Part shown: positions 3,421-22,190 of the stretch, in pieces
Layout of the letters: each line of letters begins with the position of its first letter
Numbering within the stretch: position 1 is the stretch's first letter
From: a virus
Length of the DNA stretch: 22,726 nucleotides
Virus record (IMG/VR): IMGVR_UViG_3300020407_000013
Span: 1 to 22,726 of that record
Reading direction: 5' to 3' (one strand)
Notes under the pieces: generated by a model
Databases searched by the model: none
What the model was told of the DNA's origin: nothing
The model's input: only the letters and a program-made list of their open reading frames with translations
Made by a program: the position numbers and the translations under genes

Positions 3421-3804
3421 TTAAAACTCTGCGTTATGTTCGAACTCTCGATCGAATTTAATCTGCAACTCTGTTGCAGTTGTTGTTGGTAAGTAAGTGA
3501 GCTTTACGTTAACTGTGACCGAATGTGCATCTTGATTAACTTTTATATTTGAATCTGATACTTCAAATCTAGGATCGTATGATACTACATTATATACTTC
3601 TTCATTAATAGAATCTATTGTTGATTGATCTAGTGGTTCAAAGACGTATAATTCCAAGTCGCACCCGAATGTAGGGTCTGTCCATTTCTCTCCTTTACGG
3701 ATTTTAAAATGATTTAACAGGTCCTGCTTGGCTAAATCTAAGCCAGTCAGACTCTTACTTGTGTAAGGTTGATTTAATGTTGTGTACCCAAATATATTGC
3801 TCAT
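3421..3804 (-). CDS. gp25: Baseplate wedge protein gp25
   Basis: gp25 is the small conserved wedge protein that, with gp6 and gp53, nucleates sheath contraction in contractile tails. The 127 residues are close to T4 gp25 (132). The family core is visible: DLAKQDLLNHFKIRKGEKW followed by DPTFGCDLELYVFEPL, matching the usual DLxNHFxTRxGER...PxFG pattern. It lies directly upstream of gp6, the order found in T4. Unusually, no Shine-Dalgarno sequence precedes the ATG; instead a late-promoter box (CATAAATAG, 3817-3809) ends only 4 bases before it. If RNA starts at the T4 distance, the promoter-proximal message would have almost no leader. Readthrough from upstream could also feed the gene. Confidence 0.93.
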   Translation of the reverse strand: MSNIFGYTTLNQPYTSKSLTGLDLAKQDLLNHFKIRKGEKWTDPTFGCDLELYVFEPLDQSTIDSINEEVYNVVSYDPRFEVSDSNIKVNQDAHSVTVNVKLTYLPTTTATELQIKFDREFEHNAEF

Positions 3805-3808
3805 ACAA

Positions 3809-3817
3809 CTATTTATG
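3809..3817 (-). promoter_or_regulatory. T4-type late promoter box before gp25
   Basis: The minus strand reads CATAAATAG, sharing the ATAAATA core with the other late boxes of the window and with T4 TATAAATA. In T4, RNA starts about six bases past the box, which would put +1 at or next to the gp25 ATG (3804). It lies in a 44-base gap that otherwise holds only a 12-bp palindrome (AACTACGTAGTT, 3827-3838). Confidence 0.55.
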
Positions 3818-3848
3818 CGAATTATTAACTACGTAGTTTATGAATGAG

Positions 3849-4556
3849 TTAAGTTAGTAGTTTTGCCAGGAGTCTTTTCCTACTTTCAATCATATTTGGT
3901 AAGAATCGTTTTGTTTCTGCATAGTAAACATATTCTGCTTGTTTCTTTTGATCATCATTTAATTGGCCAGTACTATATTCTTTTACAAGAGTTTGTATGC
4001 CATTTTCTTTAATAAGAGATCTATCTTTATATGTTCCATAGTCACCAAGGATTAATATTTTTGCTTCTGATTGCCTAGTAATTCTATCCAAACCACTAAG
4101 TGTTAATGCTGTGGCTACATGGTCCCATTTTTTATCTGAGATAAAATCTAATAACTTGAATTTTCTATCACCTGTTCCCACATGGCTAAATGATCCTGTA
4201 TCTACATATAAACTTAACATAGCATCATATTGTGATTGTGATAATGTGTTTAATGGAAATAGTTTTTTAAATCTTCGTTCTTTATCTTTAAATTCTTCTA
4301 TCCAATTTGTATATGCCTCAGCTTCAGTAAGGCCTGTGCCAGTTAATCCAGTAGTTCCATTGTAGCCTATAACAGAATTTTTAGAATAGCCAAGCCATTT
4401 AGTATGTCTGAGTTTAAGATTAATTAGTTTATCACTTGCTTCATGTTCAGATAAATTTATTAGCGTGTTAACCGCTGTGCTGTTAATAGTTGTAAACAAT
4501 CCATAATCTATTAGATTTTTATTATCAACTGTTGGTTGTAAGTAAACAGTTGCCAT
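3849..4556 (-). CDS. Lysozyme-like (GH24-like) protein, probably degenerate active site
   Basis: The 235 residues keep the outline of phage T4-type lysozymes (glycoside hydrolase 24). There is an N-terminal Glu-rich helix (SEHEA, about 36-40), a VIGYNGTTGLTGTGLTEAEAY segment (62-82) where active enzymes have TIGxGH followed by xTxxEA, a LSQSQYDAMLSLYVDTGSF segment (105-123) where they have LxxxQxxALxSFxxNxG, and GLDRITRQSEAKILILGDYG (155-174) matching the usual GLxxRRxxEaxLxxxGdY. The catalytic Thr of TIG is Val here and the Gly-His is Asn-Gly, so hydrolytic activity is doubtful. In T4 the lysozyme domain sits inside gp5; here gp5 lacks it and this separate gene follows gp5 with a TAATG stop/start overlap. 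A baseplate-hub role is inferred from position and fold. Confidence 0.62.
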   Translation of the reverse strand: MATVYLQPTVDNKNLIDYGLFTTINSTAVNTLINLSEHEASDKLINLKLRHTKWLGYSKNSVIGYNGTTGLTGTGLTEAEAYTNWIEEFKDKERRFKKLFPLNTLSQSQYDAMLSLYVDTGSFSHVGTGDRKFKLLDFISDKKWDHVATALTLSGLDRITRQSEAKILILGDYGTYKDRSLIKENGIQTLVKEYSTGQLNDDQKKQAEYVYYAETKRFLPNMIESRKRLLAKLLT

Positions 4557-8556: not shown

Positions 8557-9198
8557 TTATATGAAGCCATTACTGTTGCCACCTCTAAGTAAACTACCAC
8601 TTGCAAATGTTCTTATGTTAAACTTATCTTTAACAGCTTTTGGTGGAAGTTGAGGTACTATCTCTACAGATACTAGCGATAGTGTAGGCACAGCAATCAT
8701 TTCACCGCCTATATCTACTTCTACATAGTCAGTATCTTCAGGTAATGTGTATGTAAAGTTTCTAATTATACATGGAACATTTGATGCATGTACAGAACCA
8801 TAACAACTAAATTTTAGTATTGGTGGCGGAGTACCTGCTCTATCGCCTGCTTGTACGCCGAAGTCTGCTTTTGTACAAACTTTAAAGAAATGGAAAGCCG
8901 CTGCTGTATAACGTGCTTCTTCTTCTGTATTTGAAGGAAACAATGCTGTTACTGACATTGGAGGATTTGGTGTGTTTATATAATAATTTTGTTGATATAT
9001 AGATCCTGCTACATCATATGTACCATAATTTGCATTATGTGACATTTGAATAGTAGGAGTTAGTGGAAAAACTACTCCGCCATCTTTTACAAGTGGGTTT
9101 AATATACTTCGTTCGTGAGTTAATCTACCATCACCTAAGAAAAATGGGTTACCTGGTTGTTTCATTACTAACCTTGCTTTGTTTGTTATACCTGCCAT
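8557..9198 (-). CDS. Baseplate/tail-tube junction protein, gp48/gp54-like
   Basis: The 213-residue protein fits the gene called gp48 (tail-tube cap/initiator) in marine T4-like phages, where it sits beside gp53. Visible features are an N-terminal basic part, IQMSHNANYGTYDVAGSIYQ (50-69), TPNPPMSVTALFPSNTEEEA (76-95), a central helix with FFKVCTKADFG, and a C-terminal beta region (NFTYTLPEDTDYVE). The assignment is from recalled family features and order; T4 gp48 (364) and gp54 (320) are longer, and which of the two it replaces is open. It starts within the stop codon of the nucleotidyltransferase gene (TAATG), so the two are translationally coupled. Confidence 0.6.
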   Translation of the reverse strand: MAGITNKARLVMKQPGNPFFLGDGRLTHERSILNPLVKDGGVVFPLTPTIQMSHNANYGTYDVAGSIYQQNYYINTPNPPMSVTALFPSNTEEEARYTAAAFHFFKVCTKADFGVQAGDRAGTPPPILKFSCYGSVHASNVPCIIRNFTYTLPEDTDYVEVDIGGEMIAVPTLSLVSVEIVPQLPPKAVKDKFNIRTFASGSLLRGGNSNGFI

Positions 9199-9809
9199 TA
9201 TGTTAATCTATCCTCAATAAAACGAAAAACTTGTTCATCAAATTTTCCAAAAAACTTTGTAAATGCTTGTTGTTTTTCTTTCTCGTCAATTACTTTAGCC
9301 ATTGTTTCACGGAAATCACTTGCACTCATTCCACCCTGCATTAATGGTGCTACATATACGTAACCTCTTTCATTTGCAGTAGGAATTAATTCATCCATAT
9401 TATCTGGCATATCGTGTAAGAATCCTGTGCCTCCTGTTGCAAGTCTATTTGCATCTTTAGCACCGTATACAAGTATTGTTGCAGTAGTTTCTGGGTCTTT
9501 TCCAACTGCTGCCAAGTCTGGTCTGTATGGATTAGTTTTAATAATCTTGTCACCAGGTATGTTAAACATCTTATTCATAATGCTTGCCTTTTCACTAAAT
9601 GTAAATGGATCGCTACCGTAGTTGCCTTGCGAATGGGCTTTCATAGCTTTTTGGCCAAATGTTGTGGCGATAAATACATTAGCTGCACCGAACTTTTGGA
9701 CGAGATGTTTATATACATCATTATGTCCTTGGTGCATAGGTTGGAAACGACCGCCATAAAATACAGCTATGTTGTCAACACCTTCTTTTAAAATATGTTC
9801 AATTAACAT
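9198..9809 (-). CDS. HxGH nucleotidyltransferase (NMN/cytidylyltransferase-like)
   Basis: This 203-residue protein belongs to the HxGH nucleotidyltransferase superfamily, which adds AMP or CMP to phosphate-bearing substrates. Seen directly: GGRFQPMHQGH (19-29) with HxGH at H26-H29, and the second signature SASDFR (162-167, the usual ISxTxxR). A GAKDANRLATGGTG stretch at 116-129 lies in the substrate region. NadR/NadM-like NMN adenylyltransferases and glycerol-3-phosphate cytidylyltransferases share these motifs, so the substrate cannot be named. It is the first gene of the leftward baseplate operon, behind late promoter 9840-9832 with GGAGAG 9 bases before the ATG. Late timing and coupling to gp48 suggest action at virion assembly or late NAD metabolism; this is inference. 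Confidence 0.82.
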   Translation of the reverse strand: MLIEHILKEGVDNIAVFYGGRFQPMHQGHNDVYKHLVQKFGAANVFIATTFGQKAMKAHSQGNYGSDPFTFSEKASIMNKMFNIPGDKIIKTNPYRPDLAAVGKDPETTATILVYGAKDANRLATGGTGFLHDMPDNMDELIPTANERGYVYVAPLMQGGMSASDFRETMAKVIDEKEKQQAFTKFFGKFDEQVFRFIEDRLT

Positions 9810-13628: not shown

Positions 13629-13784
13629 GTGAATAAACAAGAAGAATTAGATTTAGAAGATGGGACAAATCCCGAATATGTATTATTACATGCACCAAAT
13701 ACAATAAAAGAATCAGAGCTAGGTATAGATACTTTAGAGATGATTAGGAAAACAATTAATGAGTGGATCAAGGAACAGCAATAA
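13629..13784 (+). CDS. Small acidic hypothetical protein, 51 residues
   Basis: A GTG-started frame begins 5 bases after the gp46 stop and ends in TAA at 13782-13784. The start gives MNKQEELDLEDGTNPEYVLL; the end is helical (DTLEMIRKTINEWIKEQQ). No good Shine-Dalgarno is visible, so expression would rely on coupling to gp46. Its last 26 bases overlap the start of the GIY-YIG gene, whose ribosome site (AGGAAAA, from 13746) lies within it. Short accessory proteins after gp46 are common in T4-like phages. I do not recognise the family. It is real if translated by coupling; otherwise it is a spacer. Confidence 0.55.
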   Translation: MNKQEELDLEDGTNPEYVLLHAPNTIKESELGIDTLEMIRKTINEWIKEQQ

Positions 13785-14208
13785 TTGCCCATGGACTTAT
13801 AATAATGTTGTAGTAGATGAATTACCTACAGATGTTGAAGGATTTGTATATGTAATTACAAATCTTACTAATAATAAAAAGTACATAGGTAAAAAACTAG
13901 CAAGATTTAAAACAACCAAGCCTCCACTTAAAGGTAAAAAGAATAAAAGACGTGGATTTAAAGAAAGTGACTGGAGAGACTATTGGGGCTCATCAGATCA
14001 TTTAAATGCAGATGTACTTACACTTGGTTCGGATAAGTTTACTAGAGAAATTTTACATTACTGTCCTAGTAAAGGTGTGCTAAGTTACATGGAAGCAAAA
14101 GAACAATTTGACCGTAGAGTATTAGAAACTGATGAATACTACAACGGCATTATTAACGTAAGAGTAGGTAGTTCAAAAATTCTTACGGAACACTTGAGAA
14201 AGGGTTGA
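13759..14208 (+). CDS. GIY-YIG family endonuclease
   Basis: The 149-residue protein has a GIY-YIG nuclease core: GFVYVITN (28-35) for the GIY strand, KYIGKK (41-46) for YIG, a basic segment (about 47-66), DYWGSSDHLNADVL (74-87), which corresponds to the conserved SG/GS turn in Seg and I-TevI relatives, and the catalytic-glutamate position in SYMEAKEQF (E112). It is short, with little room for a separate DNA-binding domain, so it could be a free-standing homing enzyme of the Seg type or a DNA-degrading enzyme. Its ATG overlaps the 51-residue gene by 26 bases, and its TGA stop (14206-14208) lies inside the -35 box of the next promoter. It is the last gene of the early operon. Confidence 0.72.
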   Translation: MSGSRNSNNCPWTYNNVVVDELPTDVEGFVYVITNLTNNKKYIGKKLARFKTTKPPLKGKKNKRRGFKESDWRDYWGSSDHLNADVLTLGSDKFTREILHYCPSKGVLSYMEAKEQFDRRVLETDEYYNGIINVRVGSSKILTEHLRKG

Positions 14209-14866: not shown

Positions 14867-15316
14867 ATGTATATGACGTTGGACGAATTTCAGATTAAAT
14901 TTTTAAAATTTGCAGAAGAATCAGTAGAACCTTTAAAGGGTGACGGATATCCTGTATGTCCGTATGCTAAGAGTGCAAGAATTAAAGAAGCATTACAGTT
15001 TATTGATGCACGTGAAGATATTACGGTTTTAGAATCATTTGACCATATTAAGTATCAAATGGCTATTGCGTGGTTGGGAGATGTAGATGATATGTCTTCT
15101 ATAGAAAAAACGTGTGAAGAGCTTAGAGAAAAACATCCGCACTTATTATATTTTACTAGTACAAGAACAAGTGGACATTTTGTAAAGAATTTTACTGACT
15201 GTGTGTTTGTTCAAAGAAAAAGCGATCTACTGGAGAAACGTAAACATTTACACAATAACACCACATATTATGACAGTTGGCCAAAAGATTATTATAATCT
15301 AATAATGGGCCATTAA
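14867..15316 (+). CDS. Hypothetical protein, 149 residues, CPYA motif
   Basis: A soluble, mixed-charge protein that I cannot assign. Distinct stretches are GYPVCPYAKSARIKEAL (27-43), AWLGDVDDMSSIEKTCEEL (68-86), and a C-terminal half with STRTSGHFVKNFTDCVFVQR. The single CPYA near the N-terminus and a second Cys near residue 112 could matter for metal or redox function, but no family is claimed. Two start codons compete: ATG 14867 and ATG 14873 (same frame). AGAGAAG (14859-14865) is only 1 base from the first but 7 from the second, so the true protein may be two residues shorter. The gene stands alone, behind a late promoter, and its stop abuts the stop of the converging tail-chaperone gene. 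Confidence 0.72.
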   Translation: MYMTLDEFQIKFLKFAEESVEPLKGDGYPVCPYAKSARIKEALQFIDAREDITVLESFDHIKYQMAIAWLGDVDDMSSIEKTCEELREKHPHLLYFTSTRTSGHFVKNFTDCVFVQRKSDLLEKRKHLHNNTTYYDSWPKDYYNLIMGH

Positions 15317-15616
15317 TTATCGCTTACTCATAGCGGCTTTGTTTGCTTTATTCTGTTCATCAACACGATTATTCATACGTTCTATTAACATCTGAATACT
15401 ATTCACTGGCATTTCCATAATATCCTTATAACTAAACGCACCTTCACTGCGAATAACTATATCTAAATAGCTACCTTCAGTAATTTTCAGGTCCTTTTCG
15501 TATTTTTCTATTAACTTTGCTATTTCTTCGGGCTGACGAGAAGCTATCAGCCCTCGAAAAAATTTGCGACATCTAAGTCTACGCCAGTTTTCCAGGTATG
15601 TCCACAATCTTGACAA
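15317..15616 (-). CDS. -1 frame C-terminal extension of the tail-assembly chaperone (gp51/GT-like position)
   Basis: This open frame overlaps the end of the gp26-like gene in the -1 frame. The only upstream start is a TTG at 15616 with no ribosome site, and no ATG occurs until 33 codons from the end, so independent translation is unlikely. The part downstream of the slippery site (15556 to 15317) encodes 79 residues: RGLIASRQPEEIAKLIEKYE, an acidic middle, and AFSYKDIMEMPVNSIQMLIE followed by a basic tail. The coding look and its helical MP-containing end resemble tail-assembly chaperone C-terminal domains; T4 gp51 is the positional analogue (inference). A -1 shift at 15565-15556 would fuse it to the first 274 residues of the upstream gene to give a 353-residue product. 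The upstream overlap (15557-15616) is probably not translated in this frame. Confidence 0.72.
   Translation of the reverse strand: MSRLWTYLENWRRLRCRKFFRGLIASRQPEEIAKLIEKYEKDLKITEGSYLDIVIRSEGAFSYKDIMEMPVNSIQMLIERMNNRVDEQNKANKAAMSKR
15530..15565 (-). promoter_or_regulatory. Programmed -1 ribosomal frameshift site
   Basis: On the minus strand the zero frame reads GCA AAT TTT TTC GAG GGC TGA. This contains two overlapping X XXY YYZ heptamers, A AAT TTT (15565-15559) and T TTT TTC (15562-15556). Five or two bases further on starts a perfect 7-bp stem, GGGCTGA (15553-15547) with TCAGCCC (15536-15530), with a 10-base loop. The zero-frame stop lies inside the stem. The -1 frame is open for 79 more codons. 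Confidence 0.82.
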
Positions 15617-16377
15617 GAAGCATTAAATTCAGTTTCTAATCCACTTTCACTTAATTCTTCTATTTTGCTTCGAATTATTTCGTAGTCAGGTTTAGTAATA
15701 CTTTGCAACCATTCTCTAATAAGTTCTTTGTCAGTAATAACATCTGTGTCTTTACCTTGTACACTTGTAACACTGTTAGTAATTAAGTTAACAGTAAGTT
15801 CAGCAATTTCAACAAATGTTTTTCCAAAAAGAGTTTGTCTTTGTGTATCGTCTAGTTTTTCGCTAGCCAATCCTTGGATCATTTTTCCTTGTTTAATTTG
15901 TTGAACTTGTAGTAAAGTACGATCTGTTAACGTGTAAGGGTTACAAACAATTTTAAAATCACTTGGTAACGATACACTTTGATCAACTATATCTGTTTTT
16001 GTTTTTGATAACATTACGTTAGCATCTAATTGCAATTGGTTATCAAACTCACATTTAGGACACTTAACATCTATGTCAATATGTTTACCATAACTTGCTT
16101 GTCTAATTCCTACTAAGATTACAAGTAAATCACCTACTGGCATTGATTCTGGTTCTTCAATGTCAGGGCAACAACTTTTAATCAAACTTATTGTAGCTTC
16201 TCCGTTAAACAAAGCATCTGGGGTTTTAGTAATAAGTTCATCCCTTGCTGTCATTGCATATACAGCCAGTTCGTTATCTATACTAAGTTTTGGTTTAGTT
16301 TTATAAAACTTACCACCACTTGGTAGTGCAATAAACAAAGATGGCTTTCTGTATGCCTGAATTAATGGGTTTGTCAT
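15547..16377 (-). CDS. gp26: Tail/baseplate-hub assembly protein, gp26-like, zinc-ribbon cysteines
   Basis: The 276-residue protein resembles the T4-type base-plate hub assembly family labelled gp26 in marine phages. It opens with LIQAYRKPSLFIALPSGGKF and continues with AVYAMTARDELITKTPDALF, then a NGEATISLIKSCCPDI stretch. Two Cys pairs, C106-C109 and C255-C258, form a split zinc ribbon, the second just before the C-terminus. Within a few codons of the stop the frame crosses a -1 slippery site, so a minority of ribosomes should extend it. This makes it the functional analogue of lambda gpG, made in a short and a long form to chaperone the tape measure. It is driven by a late promoter (16449-16441); GGAG (16392-16389) sits 11 bases before the ATG. 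The gp26 label is family recall; the chaperone role is inference. Confidence 0.78.
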   Translation of the reverse strand: MTNPLIQAYRKPSLFIALPSGGKFYKTKPKLSIDNELAVYAMTARDELITKTPDALFNGEATISLIKSCCPDIEEPESMPVGDLLVILVGIRQASYGKHIDIDVKCPKCEFDNQLQLDANVMLSKTKTDIVDQSVSLPSDFKIVCNPYTLTDRTLLQVQQIKQGKMIQGLASEKLDDTQRQTLFGKTFVEIAELTVNLITNSVTSVQGKDTDVITDKELIREWLQSITKPDYEIIRSKIEELSESGLETEFNASCQDCGHTWKTGVDLDVANFFEG

Positions 16378-16499: not shown

Positions 16500-18425
16500 A
16501 TGGACAACGAGCAAATAAACGCAATTTTTGATCAGTATCCTTGGGCAACAGAATCAACCCTTGATATGGTTAACTCTGAAGTCACAGAGAATAATGTTAC
16601 TATGGCTAACATAGCCGCTATACTGGGTGACTCTTCACAAGCAGATATTCAAAATCTTCAAAGAAAAGCTGAAAAGGCAAGTGACTCAGCAGAAAAAATC
16701 GAATCTAAGGTTCTAAGAGCCAGCAAAGTTGGACAAACTGCATTGGACAAGATTATTAGCGGAGCAGATCCTGTTAACGCTGTTGCTGAATTATCACACG
16801 AAGTTGCAAAATTATTAGCAAATGCTGGTGTAGGAATATCAAAATATACTAAAGGAATTAGAGGAATTGGAGCAGCAGTTTCAGCAACCACAAAAGTAAT
16901 AGGCACTGGAATGGTTATTACAACAGGAATGGCTGTAGTATTTGCAAAACTATTAACAGAACAAGAAAAACAAACTCGTCAGTTAGTAGATTTTGGTGCA
17001 GTTGTAGCTGACCAAGGATTGTGGACTTCTTTAAGAAGCAGTACAAGAAAATTAGGAATGGGACTTAAAAGTTATACAGAAATGGCAGAAGGAGCCAAAT
17101 CTGTTATAATTTCATCAGAAGGAGATGCATACTTAGGTCAAATGAAATTATCTGAATTTATTCAGCAAATTGATCAATCAGAGTGGTTTAATGATTTTGG
17201 ATTTTCAATACAAGATCAGTCTAGATTTATTACACAAGAAACAGAGACATTATACCAGTTAGGACAAATTACAAGTCTGAATGCAGCGGCTAAACAAAGA
17301 GTAATGGAAAGTTATAAATCTGCTAACAAACTTGCTCTTTTTACTGGCAACTCACTTGGTGTACAAAGAACTGAAGCACTTAGAATGAGAGAAGAAGCAA
17401 GAAACAACATTGACCTTCAAACAGGATTAATACAAAACGCAGCCTTTATTACATCCGAATATGGCGAAGTTGGAGCAAAAAATATTGCTGATGCGTCGGG
17501 GTTTTTAAAAGTACTCAACGAATCTACATTTGGAGCAGACTGGGCAAAATCATTTGAAGAGCACGTAGCTGGAACAGTTGGCGACATTTCATTTGACCAA
17601 TCGGCTGTAAATAATATTGATACAGCTTTTTTAGAAAAAATGAGAATGGTAGGGCCAGGCGTTGCAGAGGCTTATATACAATTAGTACAAGATACTGCTA
17701 CTGGAGAAATAACATCAGAAACAGAAGCGGTTGCAAGACAACGAGAATTAGTTGCGTTAGTAAAAAAACAAGTAACAAGAGTATCAGCATATAATCCTTT
17801 AATTGCAGATGCAAATATGTTAATTGCACAAGCAAAACTGATACCTGATAGTTATTTTAAAGCAGATATATCTGAATTAAATTCTGCTACACTTTATGCA
17901 GAACTTACTGAAAACGCAGATCATAATATAGATGTACTTGATGATGTATCTGTAACATTTCAAAACATTCAAGAAATATTAACACCAGGATTTGATACTA
18001 TGGGTACAGGGTTCAGAGCGTTAGCTGGCGGTATGTTAGATTTTGGTCAGGGTTTAGCAAATATGCTTCCTGGAGCAAGTGGTCGCTTTAACGAATTAGT
18101 TGTGTCAAAAGAAAAAGAAAGGATGGATTTCTTTATTGGTACTGTAACTTCTGATAACATTGACGCTACTATTAAATTAAATCAAATGAAGACAAAAGAT
18201 TTGAATGAAGAAATTGCTATGATAGTTGACGTACTTAAAGATAATAAAATACCAATGGGACTAGGTTACGAAAATGAAGGCGAAGCTTTCACCGAAGATC
18301 AAAGAAATACATTATCTTCACAACTTGAGCAGTACGAAATTGACTTATTAGGATTACAAGATCAAGCAAACGCTTTAGCTGATAAAGCAGAAGAATTAAA
18401 TAGAGTTAACGTAGGAGCATTATAA
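16500..18425 (+). CDS. Tape-measure-like tail protein 1
   Basis: The 641-residue protein is largely helical, has no enzymatic motifs, and carries one strongly hydrophobic stretch (about 131-152: GIGAAVSATTKVIGTGMVIT then TGMAVV). This layout is typical of phage tape-measure proteins, which set tail length and are ejected with the DNA. T4 gp29, the T4 tape measure, has 590 residues, so the size fits a T4-like tail. The opening (PWATESTLDMV, 14-24) is echoed in the next gene (AWASESTLKAM), and the hydrophobic stretch and a following QLVDFGAVVADQG segment also have counterparts there, so the two are paralogues. The start is supported by GGAAG 3 bases before the ATG, a rather short spacing. It is co-transcribed with the next gene from late promoter 16418-16426. 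Confidence 0.62.
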   Translation: MDNEQINAIFDQYPWATESTLDMVNSEVTENNVTMANIAAILGDSSQADIQNLQRKAEKASDSAEKIESKVLRASKVGQTALDKIISGADPVNAVAELSHEVAKLLANAGVGISKYTKGIRGIGAAVSATTKVIGTGMVITTGMAVVFAKLLTEQEKQTRQLVDFGAVVADQGLWTSLRSSTRKLGMGLKSYTEMAEGAKSVIISSEGDAYLGQMKLSEFIQQIDQSEWFNDFGFSIQDQSRFITQETETLYQLGQITSLNAAAKQRVMESYKSANKLALFTGNSLGVQRTEALRMREEARNNIDLQTGLIQNAAFITSEYGEVGAKNIADASGFLKVLNESTFGADWAKSFEEHVAGTVGDISFDQSAVNNIDTAFLEKMRMVGPGVAEAYIQLVQDTATGEITSETEAVARQRELVALVKKQVTRVSAYNPLIADANMLIAQAKLIPDSYFKADISELNSATLYAELTENADHNIDVLDDVSVTFQNIQEILTPGFDTMGTGFRALAGGMLDFGQGLANMLPGASGRFNELVVSKEKERMDFFIGTVTSDNIDATIKLNQMKTKDLNEEIAMIVDVLKDNKIPMGLGYENEGEAFTEDQRNTLSSQLEQYEIDLLGLQDQANALADKAEELNRVNVGAL

Positions 18426-18426
18426 A

Positions 18427-20463
18427 ATGGCAAACGACAAAAATCAAATAACATTAGCAGACGGAACATCGTTAGCTATACCAGCGTGGGCAAGTGAATC
18501 CACACTAAAAGCAATGGTATTAATGGCTCAACGAAGTAATGTACTGACTAAAAGTATGTTAAAAGGTTTGAAAGTGAATAAAGATGTTGATGAAAAAACA
18601 TTAGAAGCAATCAAAGAAGCAGTAGATGGAGTTAAAACTAACACAGAAACTAACCAGGAACAATCCAAAGGTAGAGCAAGTTTGTTGTTAAAAAGTGCTG
18701 AAAATATTAAAGAAACTGCTTCCTTCTTTGGTGATTCAGAAAAACCATTATCTAGTTTAGTAAAAGCGGCAGAAGGGCTAGTAAAGAAATTAGATGGTCC
18801 TACTGGCAAAGGTGGTTTTGCGGCACTGGCAAAAAAGTGGCCTGCTTTTGGTTCTGCTATTTCAGGAACGGCTGGAAAAGTAGTTGGAGTAGCATCAGAT
18901 ATTATACTAGCATTAGCAGGTTGGAATGCAGCCAAGTTTGAACAGTTTGCAGAAGTACAAAAGAAAATGATAGACAGTGGTGCTATTATGTATGATACAG
19001 GTGATGCGTTTGATCAATTATACAAAGACAGTTTCCAAGCAGGTATAACTTATAATATGCTTTCTGATGTTGTTGCTAACTATGGCGGAACAATGACAGC
19101 AATTGGCGGAGATGTGTCAAAAGGTACACAAGGGTTCTTAAAAATGTTTAAAAGTTTGTCAACTGCTACAGATGATCTAGGCGACTTAGGTATGCTTAAT
19201 AAAGAAATGATGGAAACGTATGCAAGTTATATAGAAACACAACGTTTAACAGGTGCGATAGATAGAAAGTTAATCAACAACGGCGAGGGACTAGAAGCAA
19301 GTTTTGCAAAACTAGTAGTAGAAAGTACAGCAATGGCAAGTCTAACAGCATTGAACAGAAGTGATATATTACAAAGACAAATGGCCGCATTAAGTGATCC
19401 ATTTTTAGCAGCCGGTGCTCAAACATTAAGAGATCAAGGATTAGATAAAACAGCAAACGTGGCAGAAAGTCTAATGACGCAGTTATCTTTATTCTCAGAT
19501 GTTGGCCCTGGTGCAGGTATAATGGCTGAACTTTCAGAATCATTTAATAGAAATTTAAATGAGTTTTCTAGCAACATAGAAAGTTTCCAAGTAGAAACTG
19601 GAATGACAAATGAGACACGTTCTGCATTTGATAAAATAATGCCAGGTTTCTTAGGAAGAATCAATGATATGGTTCAAAACGGAGAAATGACTACTGAGAC
19701 AGCTAAGAATTTCATGTTAAAAGAATTTGATAAAATGGACTTGGAAAGATTAGCAACTGCTGGTGTAGAAGGTGGTTCACCACTGAAACTAATACAAGAA
19801 CTTCAAGCTAGTGGTATTTTAATTAAAAAGAATTTTGGAGAATGGATTGATTTGTCTCAAAAAGAGATACAAGACATAGTTAACAAAACAAAAACAACAC
19901 TAGACGAATCAGGTTCAACAACTGTAGCAATGAATGATATGGCAAAAATGTTCTTATCAGCCCAAGAACTTATTACATTACCTATGAATAAGTTTGCTGA
20001 TGCACTTGAAACTGTAACAGGATTTATAGAAGAAAAAACATCTAGCGGCAACGAAATATCAAACAATATGTTTGAATTCGTTACTTTAGGTAGAGCAGAC
20101 AGAGATCAGCTTGACGCTGTAAGAGGAGAGGTTGATGGAAATACTAAAGATGCCGATAATTCAATAGGAGCAACGTCAACTACAAGTCGAGTTGTAAATG
20201 CAGTAATAAATGGTGGACAAAACGCTACGTTATCAACTAAACAGACTGAAAAGTTAAATAATCAGTTGACAGATTACGAAAATCAAGTTAAAATGTTAAT
20301 TGAATCGGATGAACGCTTCAAAGAAAGACAAATAGTTAGAATAAAACATCAAATGGAGCAAATTAATAGAGCTATGGAGATTTCCAATAAAAACATTAAA
20401 AACATGGAAGATAAAAGGAATATAGCAATTAGTGAAGAAAGAATGCAGGATGCTGGAAATTAA
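18427..20463 (+). CDS. Tape-measure-like tail protein 2
   Basis: The 678-residue helical protein resembles its upstream neighbour in plan. It has WASESTLKAMVLM (21-33), a Lys/Glu-rich helical part, a hydrophobic segment (about 141-165: FAALAKKWPAFGSAISGTAG then KVVGVASDIILAL), MIDSGAIMYDTGD (181-193), and a long helical body ending in a basic coiled-coil-like tail (about 610-670). It starts 1 base after the previous stop, with AGGAG inside the end of that gene, so the two should be made in similar amounts. At about 1.5 angstrom per residue either protein would suit a tail near 100 nm; which one is the ruler is unknown. An alternative is that one is a tail-lumen or hub protein derived by duplication. 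Confidence 0.6.
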   Translation: MANDKNQITLADGTSLAIPAWASESTLKAMVLMAQRSNVLTKSMLKGLKVNKDVDEKTLEAIKEAVDGVKTNTETNQEQSKGRASLLLKSAENIKETASFFGDSEKPLSSLVKAAEGLVKKLDGPTGKGGFAALAKKWPAFGSAISGTAGKVVGVASDIILALAGWNAAKFEQFAEVQKKMIDSGAIMYDTGDAFDQLYKDSFQAGITYNMLSDVVANYGGTMTAIGGDVSKGTQGFLKMFKSLSTATDDLGDLGMLNKEMMETYASYIETQRLTGAIDRKLINNGEGLEASFAKLVVESTAMASLTALNRSDILQRQMAALSDPFLAAGAQTLRDQGLDKTANVAESLMTQLSLFSDVGPGAGIMAELSESFNRNLNEFSSNIESFQVETGMTNETRSAFDKIMPGFLGRINDMVQNGEMTTETAKNFMLKEFDKMDLERLATAGVEGGSPLKLIQELQASGILIKKNFGEWIDLSQKEIQDIVNKTKTTLDESGSTTVAMNDMAKMFLSAQELITLPMNKFADALETVTGFIEEKTSSGNEISNNMFEFVTLGRADRDQLDAVRGEVDGNTKDADNSIGATSTTSRVVNAVINGGQNATLSTKQTEKLNNQLTDYENQVKMLIESDERFKERQIVRIKHQMEQINRAMEISNKNIKNMEDKRNIAISEERMQDAGN

Positions 20464-20516: not shown

Positions 20517-22190
20517 ATGAGTTGGAAAAAACATTTTACAAGATATAACCCAATGGATGGGACAGGTGGAAACACTAGAACTAGTCGCTGGCAAAGCTGG
20601 CTACCAGAAGTATACAGCGGTCAGCCGAATCGGGTTGAACGATATACACAGTACGATCAAATGGATCAAGACAGCGAAATAAACGCGGCATTGGATACTA
20701 TTGCAGAATTTAGTACACAATTAGATCCTGAAAATCAAATACCATTTAAAGTTCTTTATAAAACAACACCAACTGATTCAGAAATTTCTGCATTAGAAAC
20801 TACATTAAAACAATGGGTTAGAATTAATAACTTTGAACGTAGAATTTTTACTATGTTTAGATCTTGTATTAAATATGGAGATCAGTTTTTTATTAGAGAC
20901 CCAGAAACATATAAACTTATCTTTGTACAACCCGGCGATGTAGCAAAAACAATTGTTAATGAAAGCGAAGGCAGAGAAATTGATCAATATATTATTAAAA
21001 ATATTGCACTTAACTTACAAGACTTAGTAGCAACAGATACTAAAAAACATCAAGATTCAACTACAGTTAATCCTACAACAGGTTATACAGTTGGTAAAGG
21101 AAATGCAGGCATTGTATCTCCAAATAACTCATCTGGTGTAAATGCAGAATTTGCAGTAGATTCAAAGCATGTTGTTCACGTAAGTTTATCAGATGGAATG
21201 AATAGTAACTGGCCATTTGGTGATAGTATTTTAGAACCTGTATTTAAAGTTTATAAACAAAAAGAATTATTAGAAGATAGTATTATTATCTATCGTGTAC
21301 AAAGAGCACCTGAAAGACGTGTGTTTTATATTGACGTAGGTAATATGCCAGCACACAAAGCAATGAGCTTTGTTGAAAGAGTTAAAAACGAAGTACACCA
21401 AGTACGTATACCAAATATGAGTGGTGGCGGTACTAAAGTTGTTGATGCGGCTTATAACCCGTTATCAATAATGGAAGATTATTTCTTTGCACAAACAGCA
21501 GAAGGACGTGGATCTAAAGTTGAAGTTTTACCGGGTGGTGAAAACCTTGGTGAGATTGATGATTTAAAGTACTTTAATAACAAGTTAATGCGTGGACTTC
21601 GTGTACCAACATCGTACCTTCCTACTGGAAGTGAAGATGGTATAGCGGCGTTTAATGACGGACGTATTGGTACAGCAATGATCCAAGAATTCCGTTTTGC
21701 AAAGTATTGCGAAAGATTACAATTAACATTACAACAATCTTTAGACCATGAGTTTAAATTATTTTGTAAGCACAGAGGCTTAGATCTTAGTGCTAGTTTA
21801 TTTGATTTATCATTTGCCGAGCCACAGAGTTTCTCACAATATAGAACAATTGAAATTGATGCACAAAAGGCAAATCTGTTTAGTTCAATAGAAGGAGTTC
21901 CTTATCTATCGAAAAGATTTATACTTGCAAGATACTTAGGATTAAATGAAGAAGAAATGCTTGAAAATGAAAGAATGTGGAAAGAAGAAAATCAAGAAGG
22001 AAACCAACCAGCCGGGTCAGCAACAGGCGACTTAGGTGGTATGGGGCTTAGAGGCTCAGACGTAGATAGTTTCCAACCCACAGACGTTGATGCAGAAAAT
22101 GCAGACGCTGATCCAGATGCTGGTATTGATACACCAGATTCAGCAGGCGGCGACACACCAGACTTAGGAGATATAAGCGATGAGATTTAA
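20517..22190 (+). CDS. gp20: Portal vertex protein gp20
   Basis: gp20 forms the dodecameric portal through which DNA enters and leaves the head. The 557 residues (T4: 524) carry clear family stretches: QYDQMDQDSEINAALDTIAE (44-63), VYKQKELLEDSIIIYRVQRA (241-260) followed by PERRVFYIDVGNMP, the PTSYLPTGSEDG motif (about 362-373), and FAKYCERLQLTLQQSLDHEF. The last 55 residues are Gly/Asp-rich and poorly conserved in look (GDLGGMGLRGSDVDSF, then repeated D/A/P). The gene has its own late promoter, and its end overlaps the next start by 11 bases. Identification is secure. Confidence 0.96.
   Translation: MSWKKHFTRYNPMDGTGGNTRTSRWQSWLPEVYSGQPNRVERYTQYDQMDQDSEINAALDTIAEFSTQLDPENQIPFKVLYKTTPTDSEISALETTLKQWVRINNFERRIFTMFRSCIKYGDQFFIRDPETYKLIFVQPGDVAKTIVNESEGREIDQYIIKNIALNLQDLVATDTKKHQDSTTVNPTTGYTVGKGNAGIVSPNNSSGVNAEFAVDSKHVVHVSLSDGMNSNWPFGDSILEPVFKVYKQKELLEDSIIIYRVQRAPERRVFYIDVGNMPAHKAMSFVERVKNEVHQVRIPNMSGGGTKVVDAAYNPLSIMEDYFFAQTAEGRGSKVEVLPGGENLGEIDDLKYFNNKLMRGLRVPTSYLPTGSEDGIAAFNDGRIGTAMIQEFRFAKYCERLQLTLQQSLDHEFKLFCKHRGLDLSASLFDLSFAEPQSFSQYRTIEIDAQKANLFSSIEGVPYLSKRFILARYLGLNEEEMLENERMWKEENQEGNQPAGSATGDLGGMGLRGSDVDSFQPTDVDAENADADPDAGIDTPDSAGGDTPDLGDISDEI

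Follow-up and report, generated by a model that had tools for sequence, protein, structure and literature searches.

A gp26-like gene of T4-type and jumbo phages with a probable -1 frameshift into a gp51-like extension

A single gp26-like gene in a 22,726-nt stretch of DNA from a T4-type marine phage (IMG/VR record IMGVR_UViG_3300020407_000013, positions 1 to 22,726; referred to as the window) very probably encodes two tail assembly chaperones by means of -1 slippage. The majority of ribosomes would stop at the zero-frame stop and release TAC-N, a protein of 276 residues that corresponds to lambda gpG and T4 gp26. A smaller share would slip back one base on T TTT TTC and produce TAC-NC, a protein of 353 residues that corresponds to lambda gpGT and T4 gp51 and would carry an extra 79-residue C-terminal domain. 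In the window clade the slippage may be aided by an overlapping A AAT TTT heptamer and by a hairpin at the stop. We infer the slippage and its efficiency, and likewise a role in assembly that follows the analogy with lambda; the short form may act as a coat of the tape-measure protein, and the added C-terminal domain may recruit tail-tube or hub components.

The frameshift cassette and its hairpin

The final codons of the gp26-like gene read GCA AAT TTT TTC GAG GGC TGA on the minus strand (15567-15547). They contain two overlapping heptamers, A AAT TTT (15565-15559) and T TTT TTC (15562-15556), and both are in the X XXY YYZ phase of tandem slippage (Table 1). The hairpin follows after a spacer of 2 nt from T TTT TTC or 5 nt from A AAT TTT. 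Its stem (GGGCTGA/TCAGCCC, 15553-15547 with 15536-15530) is perfect and GC-rich, and the zero-frame stop at 15549-15547 lies within it. The -1 frame is open for 79 codons (15556-15320) and ends with a stop at 15319-15317, which gives a predicted frameshift product of 353 residues. The initial annotation of this DNA had proposed such a cassette, and its parts, their order, phase and minus-strand coordinates are all confirmed. The same is true of the perfect 7-bp GC-rich hairpin that it had placed around the zero-frame stop, and of the products of 276 and 353 residues.

Seventeen genes of the window were scanned for a T6, A3T3 or A6 heptamer in phase together with a long -1 run past the stop, and only the gp26-like gene has both. 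Its -1 run continues for 227 nt beyond the stop, compared with 8 nt for the next best gene.

Table 1. Coordinates of the cassette elements and of neighbouring genes in the window
Feature	Position	Strand	Basis or remark
gp26-like gene, zero frame, 276 aa, predicted short tail assembly chaperone (TAC-N)	15547..16377	-	PF12322, phrog_150, homologues in 63 phage records
Slippery heptamer A AAT TTT, in phase	15559..15565	-	Conserved within the window clade, not seen in other lineages
Slippery heptamer T TTT TTC, in phase, widely conserved element	15556..15562	-	Encodes F273-F274, invariant in 27 homologues
Hairpin, 7 bp (8 with a U-G pair), holds the zero-frame stop	15530..15553	-	9/9 clade members
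-1 frame extension, 79 codons and stop, predicted TAC-C, gp51-like C-terminal domain of the long product	15317..15556	-	dN/dS, start-codon scan
Divergent neighbour, 641 aa, possible tape-measure-like protein	16500..18425	+	Adjoins gp26 and precedes the portal; jumbo-phage proteins resemble it no more than noise
678 aa, possible tape-measure protein	18427..20463	+	Paride protein in the same position matches weakly, E 0.001 among 14 proteins compared
T4-type portal gp20	20517..22190	+	PF07230, E 1.7e-105
SegE-type GIY-YIG endonuclease	13759-14208	+	PF19835, E 5.4e-35
Cytidylyltransferase-like gene, among baseplate-side genes	9198-9809	-	PF01467, E 2e-4, slightly above the cut-off
149-aa ORF	14867-15316	+	Matches only phrogs of unknown function, and weakly

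The hairpin region of the window folds at -14.2 kcal/mol with a z-score of -2.6, a value that was equalled by 2 of 200 shuffled sequences. The complete stem is present in all nine window-clade sequences, which also contain one wobble and one compensatory pair, a C-G to U-A change that is silent in either frame. Since most of the pairs are invariant, the covariation backing for the hairpin is modest. In most of the distant relatives the folds after the slip site are weak, different or differently placed, so a hairpin downstream is rejected as a general component of the cassette. Since the post-slip sequence of other lineages folds differently or weakly, T TTT TTC is, on the loci compared, the shared element, and the hairpin and A AAT TTT are a local addition of the window clade.

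A CTTCTC motif (mostly GCTTCTC) follows the slip site at 15544-15538 in the window and in the same region of loci L002, L005, L009 and L010. The motif is common to the window clade and many enterobacterial jumbo phages; in the window clade it lies about 4 nt further downstream, in another reading register, than in the enterobacterial phages.

Conservation, selection and start codons among relatives

Close to the gp26 stop, an in-phase T TTT TTC or T TTT TTT is present in all 32 relatives other than the window, each of which also encodes a related peptide in the -1 frame. The relatives consist of 16 IMG/VR loci and 16 GenBank jumbo-phage records (287-490 kb), which include RaK2, PBECO4, CBB, GAP32, Munch, Pseudomonas phage Paride, Agrobacterium phage Atu_ph07, Sinorhizobium phage Phosso, and Erwinia, Xanthomonas, Stenotrophomonas, Vibrio and Salicola phages. 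The heptamer is also in phase in four of four Kyanoviridae (Bellamy, S-RIM12, Melnitz-2 and C48C1). Among 84 further IMG/VR loci, TTTTTTC is found in each of the 83 that are legible to the end of the gene; all of these heptamer counts are of sequences and not of independent events, and near-duplicate loci are among them. A Vibrio query against IMG/VR returned no relatives, and the broad alignment was too poor in conserved stretches to locate distant loci.

The heptamer encodes F273 and F274, which are two of just six invariant columns among 27 homologues, and protein identity outside the window clade is only about 17-31%. Given two Phe codons and the codon usage of each gene, the use of NNT TTT in all 19 lineages has a probability of about 10^-10.8, a figure which assumes that the 19 lineages are independent. 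The -1 frame past the overlap shows purifying selection, with a dN/dS of 0.08-0.29 in eight window-clade sequences (pairs with unsaturated dS). An in-phase heptamer is present in every homologue read, whether of the window clade, of the GenBank jumbo phages or of Kyanoviridae; therefore, a chance origin of the cassette is excluded by this comparison. In the same three groups there is no homologue that has a separate start for the second frame and lacks the slippery run, which is the contrary case that the initial annotation had named. Its expectation that the heptamer, the hairpin and the -1 frame would all be kept in homologues stands for the heptamer and the frame, but the hairpin is limited to the window clade.

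It could be argued that the two phenylalanines are kept for protein reasons, and that the frame downstream is decayed or unrelated. T4 gp26 does have FF at this point (KEFFELL) without a slippery run. However, such a coincidence is contradicted by the codon-choice probability, by a second-frame dN/dS well below 1 and by the homology of the second frame to T4 gp51 via Kyanoviridae; it is considered extremely improbable.

Transcriptional slippage, in which the polymerase stutters on T TTT TT to give mixed mRNAs, some of them in the -1 frame, is also very improbable, if slightly less so. The run has six or seven Ts in a row, to which the codon before contributes another, and it is extended to T TTT TTT in XacN1, RAS14, Melnitz-2 and C48C1. 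Most of the T runs end in C, however, and runs of such length are short for efficient transcriptional slippage. The codon phase is fixed as NNT TTT TTC, as ribosomal tandem slippage requires, and a hairpin of the ribosomal type has been added in the window clade.

The main rival to ribosomal slippage is translational coupling. Ribosomes would stop at the zero-frame TGA and restart nearby in the -1 frame at an ATG, a TTG or, in the window, the CTG at 15550-15548, and the extension would be a separate small protein. Atu_ph07, Phosso and PBECO4 have an ATG at or next to the stop, several window-clade members have a TTG that overlaps the TGA, and record annotators have treated the downstream ORF as a separate gene, all of which is consistent with coupling. 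A scan for ATG, GTG and TTG from the last upstream -1 stop to 20 codons beyond the slip site gave a different result in other phages. RaK2, Paride, C48C1 and locus L019 have none of these codons in that interval. The window has only two TTGs, 54 and 45 nt upstream of the slip site and both within gp26, so none of these five sequences has an ATG, GTG or TTG in reach; the earlier description of the window's 79-codon frame as having no usable start is thus upheld. Judged by the codons present, coupled reinitiation with ordinary start codons cannot serve in the window, RaK2, Paride or C48C1.

The position of the conserved frame also argues against coupling. Hallingskeid, Munch, CBB, Phosso, PBECO4 and Melnitz-2 each have a -1 stop just 3-6 nt ahead of the heptamer, so the conserved frame opens only at the slip site. 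The zero-frame stop of Munch, XaC1 and Hallingskeid is 40 nt beyond the heptamer, and the -1 frame is conserved already ahead of that stop. The residues just past the slip site (R.xLL..PEEI) are conserved in the -1 frame, and reinitiation leaves the in-phase retention of T6 unexplained. Coupling is unlikely to be the source of the extension, but it is possible as an addition to frameshifting where an ATG or TTG is found at the stop.

In GenBank the -1 extension is unannotated in RaK2 and Paride and is a late-started short hypothetical gene in most of the others; no joined CDS is marked at the gp26 3' end in the records of Paride, RaK2, Munch, Hallingskeid and others. A frameshift would explain this orphan frame, which is omitted, started late or listed as a separate hypothetical gene in RaK2, PA5oct-type, Atu_ph07, CBB and GAP32-type records.

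Two loci from uncultured phages are more distant. In the 484-kb phage LR756508.1 (L039, 223637-230368; about 3700-4005), there is no T6 run at the end of the gp26-like gene, and the +1 frame encodes a TAC-C-like peptide, YYSNGGYSWYNVYHHMPVHHRKFHLRKLQEIKDEE, which suggests a +1 or -2 shift. This very distant phage is the single exception to the T6 rule that was met. In the 595-kb phage LR756511.1 (L038, 457328-463615; about 3708-3935), GGGTTTT/TTTTTTC is located about 70 nt upstream of the gp26-like stop and the -1 extension includes FLQYPINERKYIIHKFIEQKERE. LR756511 is the most distant probable case of this frameshift.

Kinship with T4 gp26 and gp51

The 276-residue protein matches PF12322 (T4_baseplate) with an E-value of 1.9e-20, above the curated cut-off, and it matches phrog_150, 'baseplate hub'. 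Profile comparison with hhalign aligns the jumbo-phage and Kyanoviridae frameshift products end to end (99.3% probability, E 9.5e-21). The Kyanoviridae frameshift product in turn aligns with residues 7-244 of T4 gp51 (95.7%, E 8e-9), and its zero-frame part aligns with nearly the whole length of T4 gp26 (97.6%, E 4.6e-12). Since the Kyanoviridae products align in this way with the two T4 proteins, the window's products of 276 and 353 residues are likely to be short and long tail assembly chaperones similar to lambda G and GT. The extensions were also compared alone. The Kyanoviridae extension matches the C-terminus of T4 gp51 with an E-value of 1.8e-5 (0.84 for the reversed control), and the window-group extension matches that of Kyanoviridae with an E-value of 0.002 (reversed control 0.29). 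Directly against T4 gp51 the window-type extension gives a weak match (E 0.036; reversed control 0.28); by these profiles it is connected to T4 gp51 through Kyanoviridae only. The gp26/gp51 connection made in the initial annotation is thus borne out by PF12322 and by the hhalign chain via Kyanoviridae. In Kyanoviridae records the -1 peptide is annotated as gp51, 'baseplate hub assembly catalyst' or similar, and this short protein is in all likelihood the C-terminal end of a frameshift product.

In T4 itself, genes 26 and 51 lie in divergent orientation, and gene 25 comes next after gene 26. The earlier description of separate genes 26 and 51 in T4 is correct, but the collinear split that it implied is ruled out by the divergent gp51. 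T4 therefore does not represent a simple split of the cassette. A T6 -1 shift may be ancestral for the gp26/gp51 pair in T4-type phages up to jumbo phages of about 300-600 kb, with the two genes of T4 derived and at least one huge-phage lineage (LR756508) moved to a +1 or -2 shift; this history is tentative and somewhat less likely than its opposite.

AlphaFold models the zero-frame protein with confidence (pLDDT 85.8), and the model matches other T4-type hub proteins in a viral structure library. A Foldseek comparison of this model with the PDB gave nothing significant, and a sequence search of the PDB with the gp26 profile gave chance matches only. HK97 gp13 (PDB 2ob9) is a weak match over the whole chain, with 101 of 107 residues aligned at an rmsd of 5.2 and a Z of 6.0, which is the background level of unrelated helical proteins.

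Described tail assembly chaperones and the gene neighborhood

T4 genes 26 and 51 reportedly correspond to TAC-N and TAC-NC, and frameshifting is said to occur in several T4-like groups, with T4 itself having the two as separate genes. The initial annotation knew of no described frameshift in the T4-type group. This does not hold, since a 2022 paper identified the tail assembly chaperones of T4-like phages, reportedly with frameshifting (Vladimirov, Gautam and Davidson, Virology 2022; 566:9-15). Poly-T -1 signals in T4-like TAC-N genes are described, with a citation of that paper, in PMC12846349. The window shares with these chaperones the gene family (PF12322), the gp51 second domain and the poly-T signals, whereas A AAT TTT and the covarying hairpin are additions of the window clade. 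Frameshifted gp26/gp51 chaperones are thus of an already published kind for T4-like phages, and they are reproduced independently here. A literature search found no paper joining jumbo phage, frameshift and baseplate hub. As far as can be told, what is added is the extension to jumbo phages around RaK2, PA5oct, Atu_ph07 and XacN1, in which the fusion is unannotated in public records. This would tie the T4 hub-assembly genes 26 and 51 to a general tail-chaperone mechanism, and the set of phages is ready for testing.

The comparison with G/GT that was made at the outset holds, with a heptamer in phase and a selected second frame that has no start of its own. Lambda gpG/gpGT and P2 E/E+E' likewise use a -1 shift near the 3' end of the short chaperone gene to make a minor long form. 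The likeness seen here is one of arrangement; the lambda slip site is G GGA AAG. These cassettes are close to the tape-measure gene, and the tape-measure-like genes of the window are divergent, on the other strand. Vandenendeviridae and Andersonviridae, which are different phage families, have a conserved GTTTTT -1 site at the TAC-N 3' end with a -1 frame that is open family-wide (PMC12846349). Their poly-T site is like that of the window, but their cassette is directly upstream of the tape measure, unlike that of the window.

The window has a T4-type virion neighborhood, with gp20 portal, gp25, gp6-like and SbcCD/gp46-47-like genes. The large divergent ORF ahead of the portal is annotated as a tape measure in some relatives, and the similarity of the window's protein to these is weak. 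The SegE-type GIY-YIG endonuclease adjoins the gp46-like gene and is likely a homing endonuclease. The cytidylyltransferase-like gene overlaps the next gene by one base. The end of the 149-aa plus-strand ORF directly abuts the end of the -1 frame on the opposite strand.
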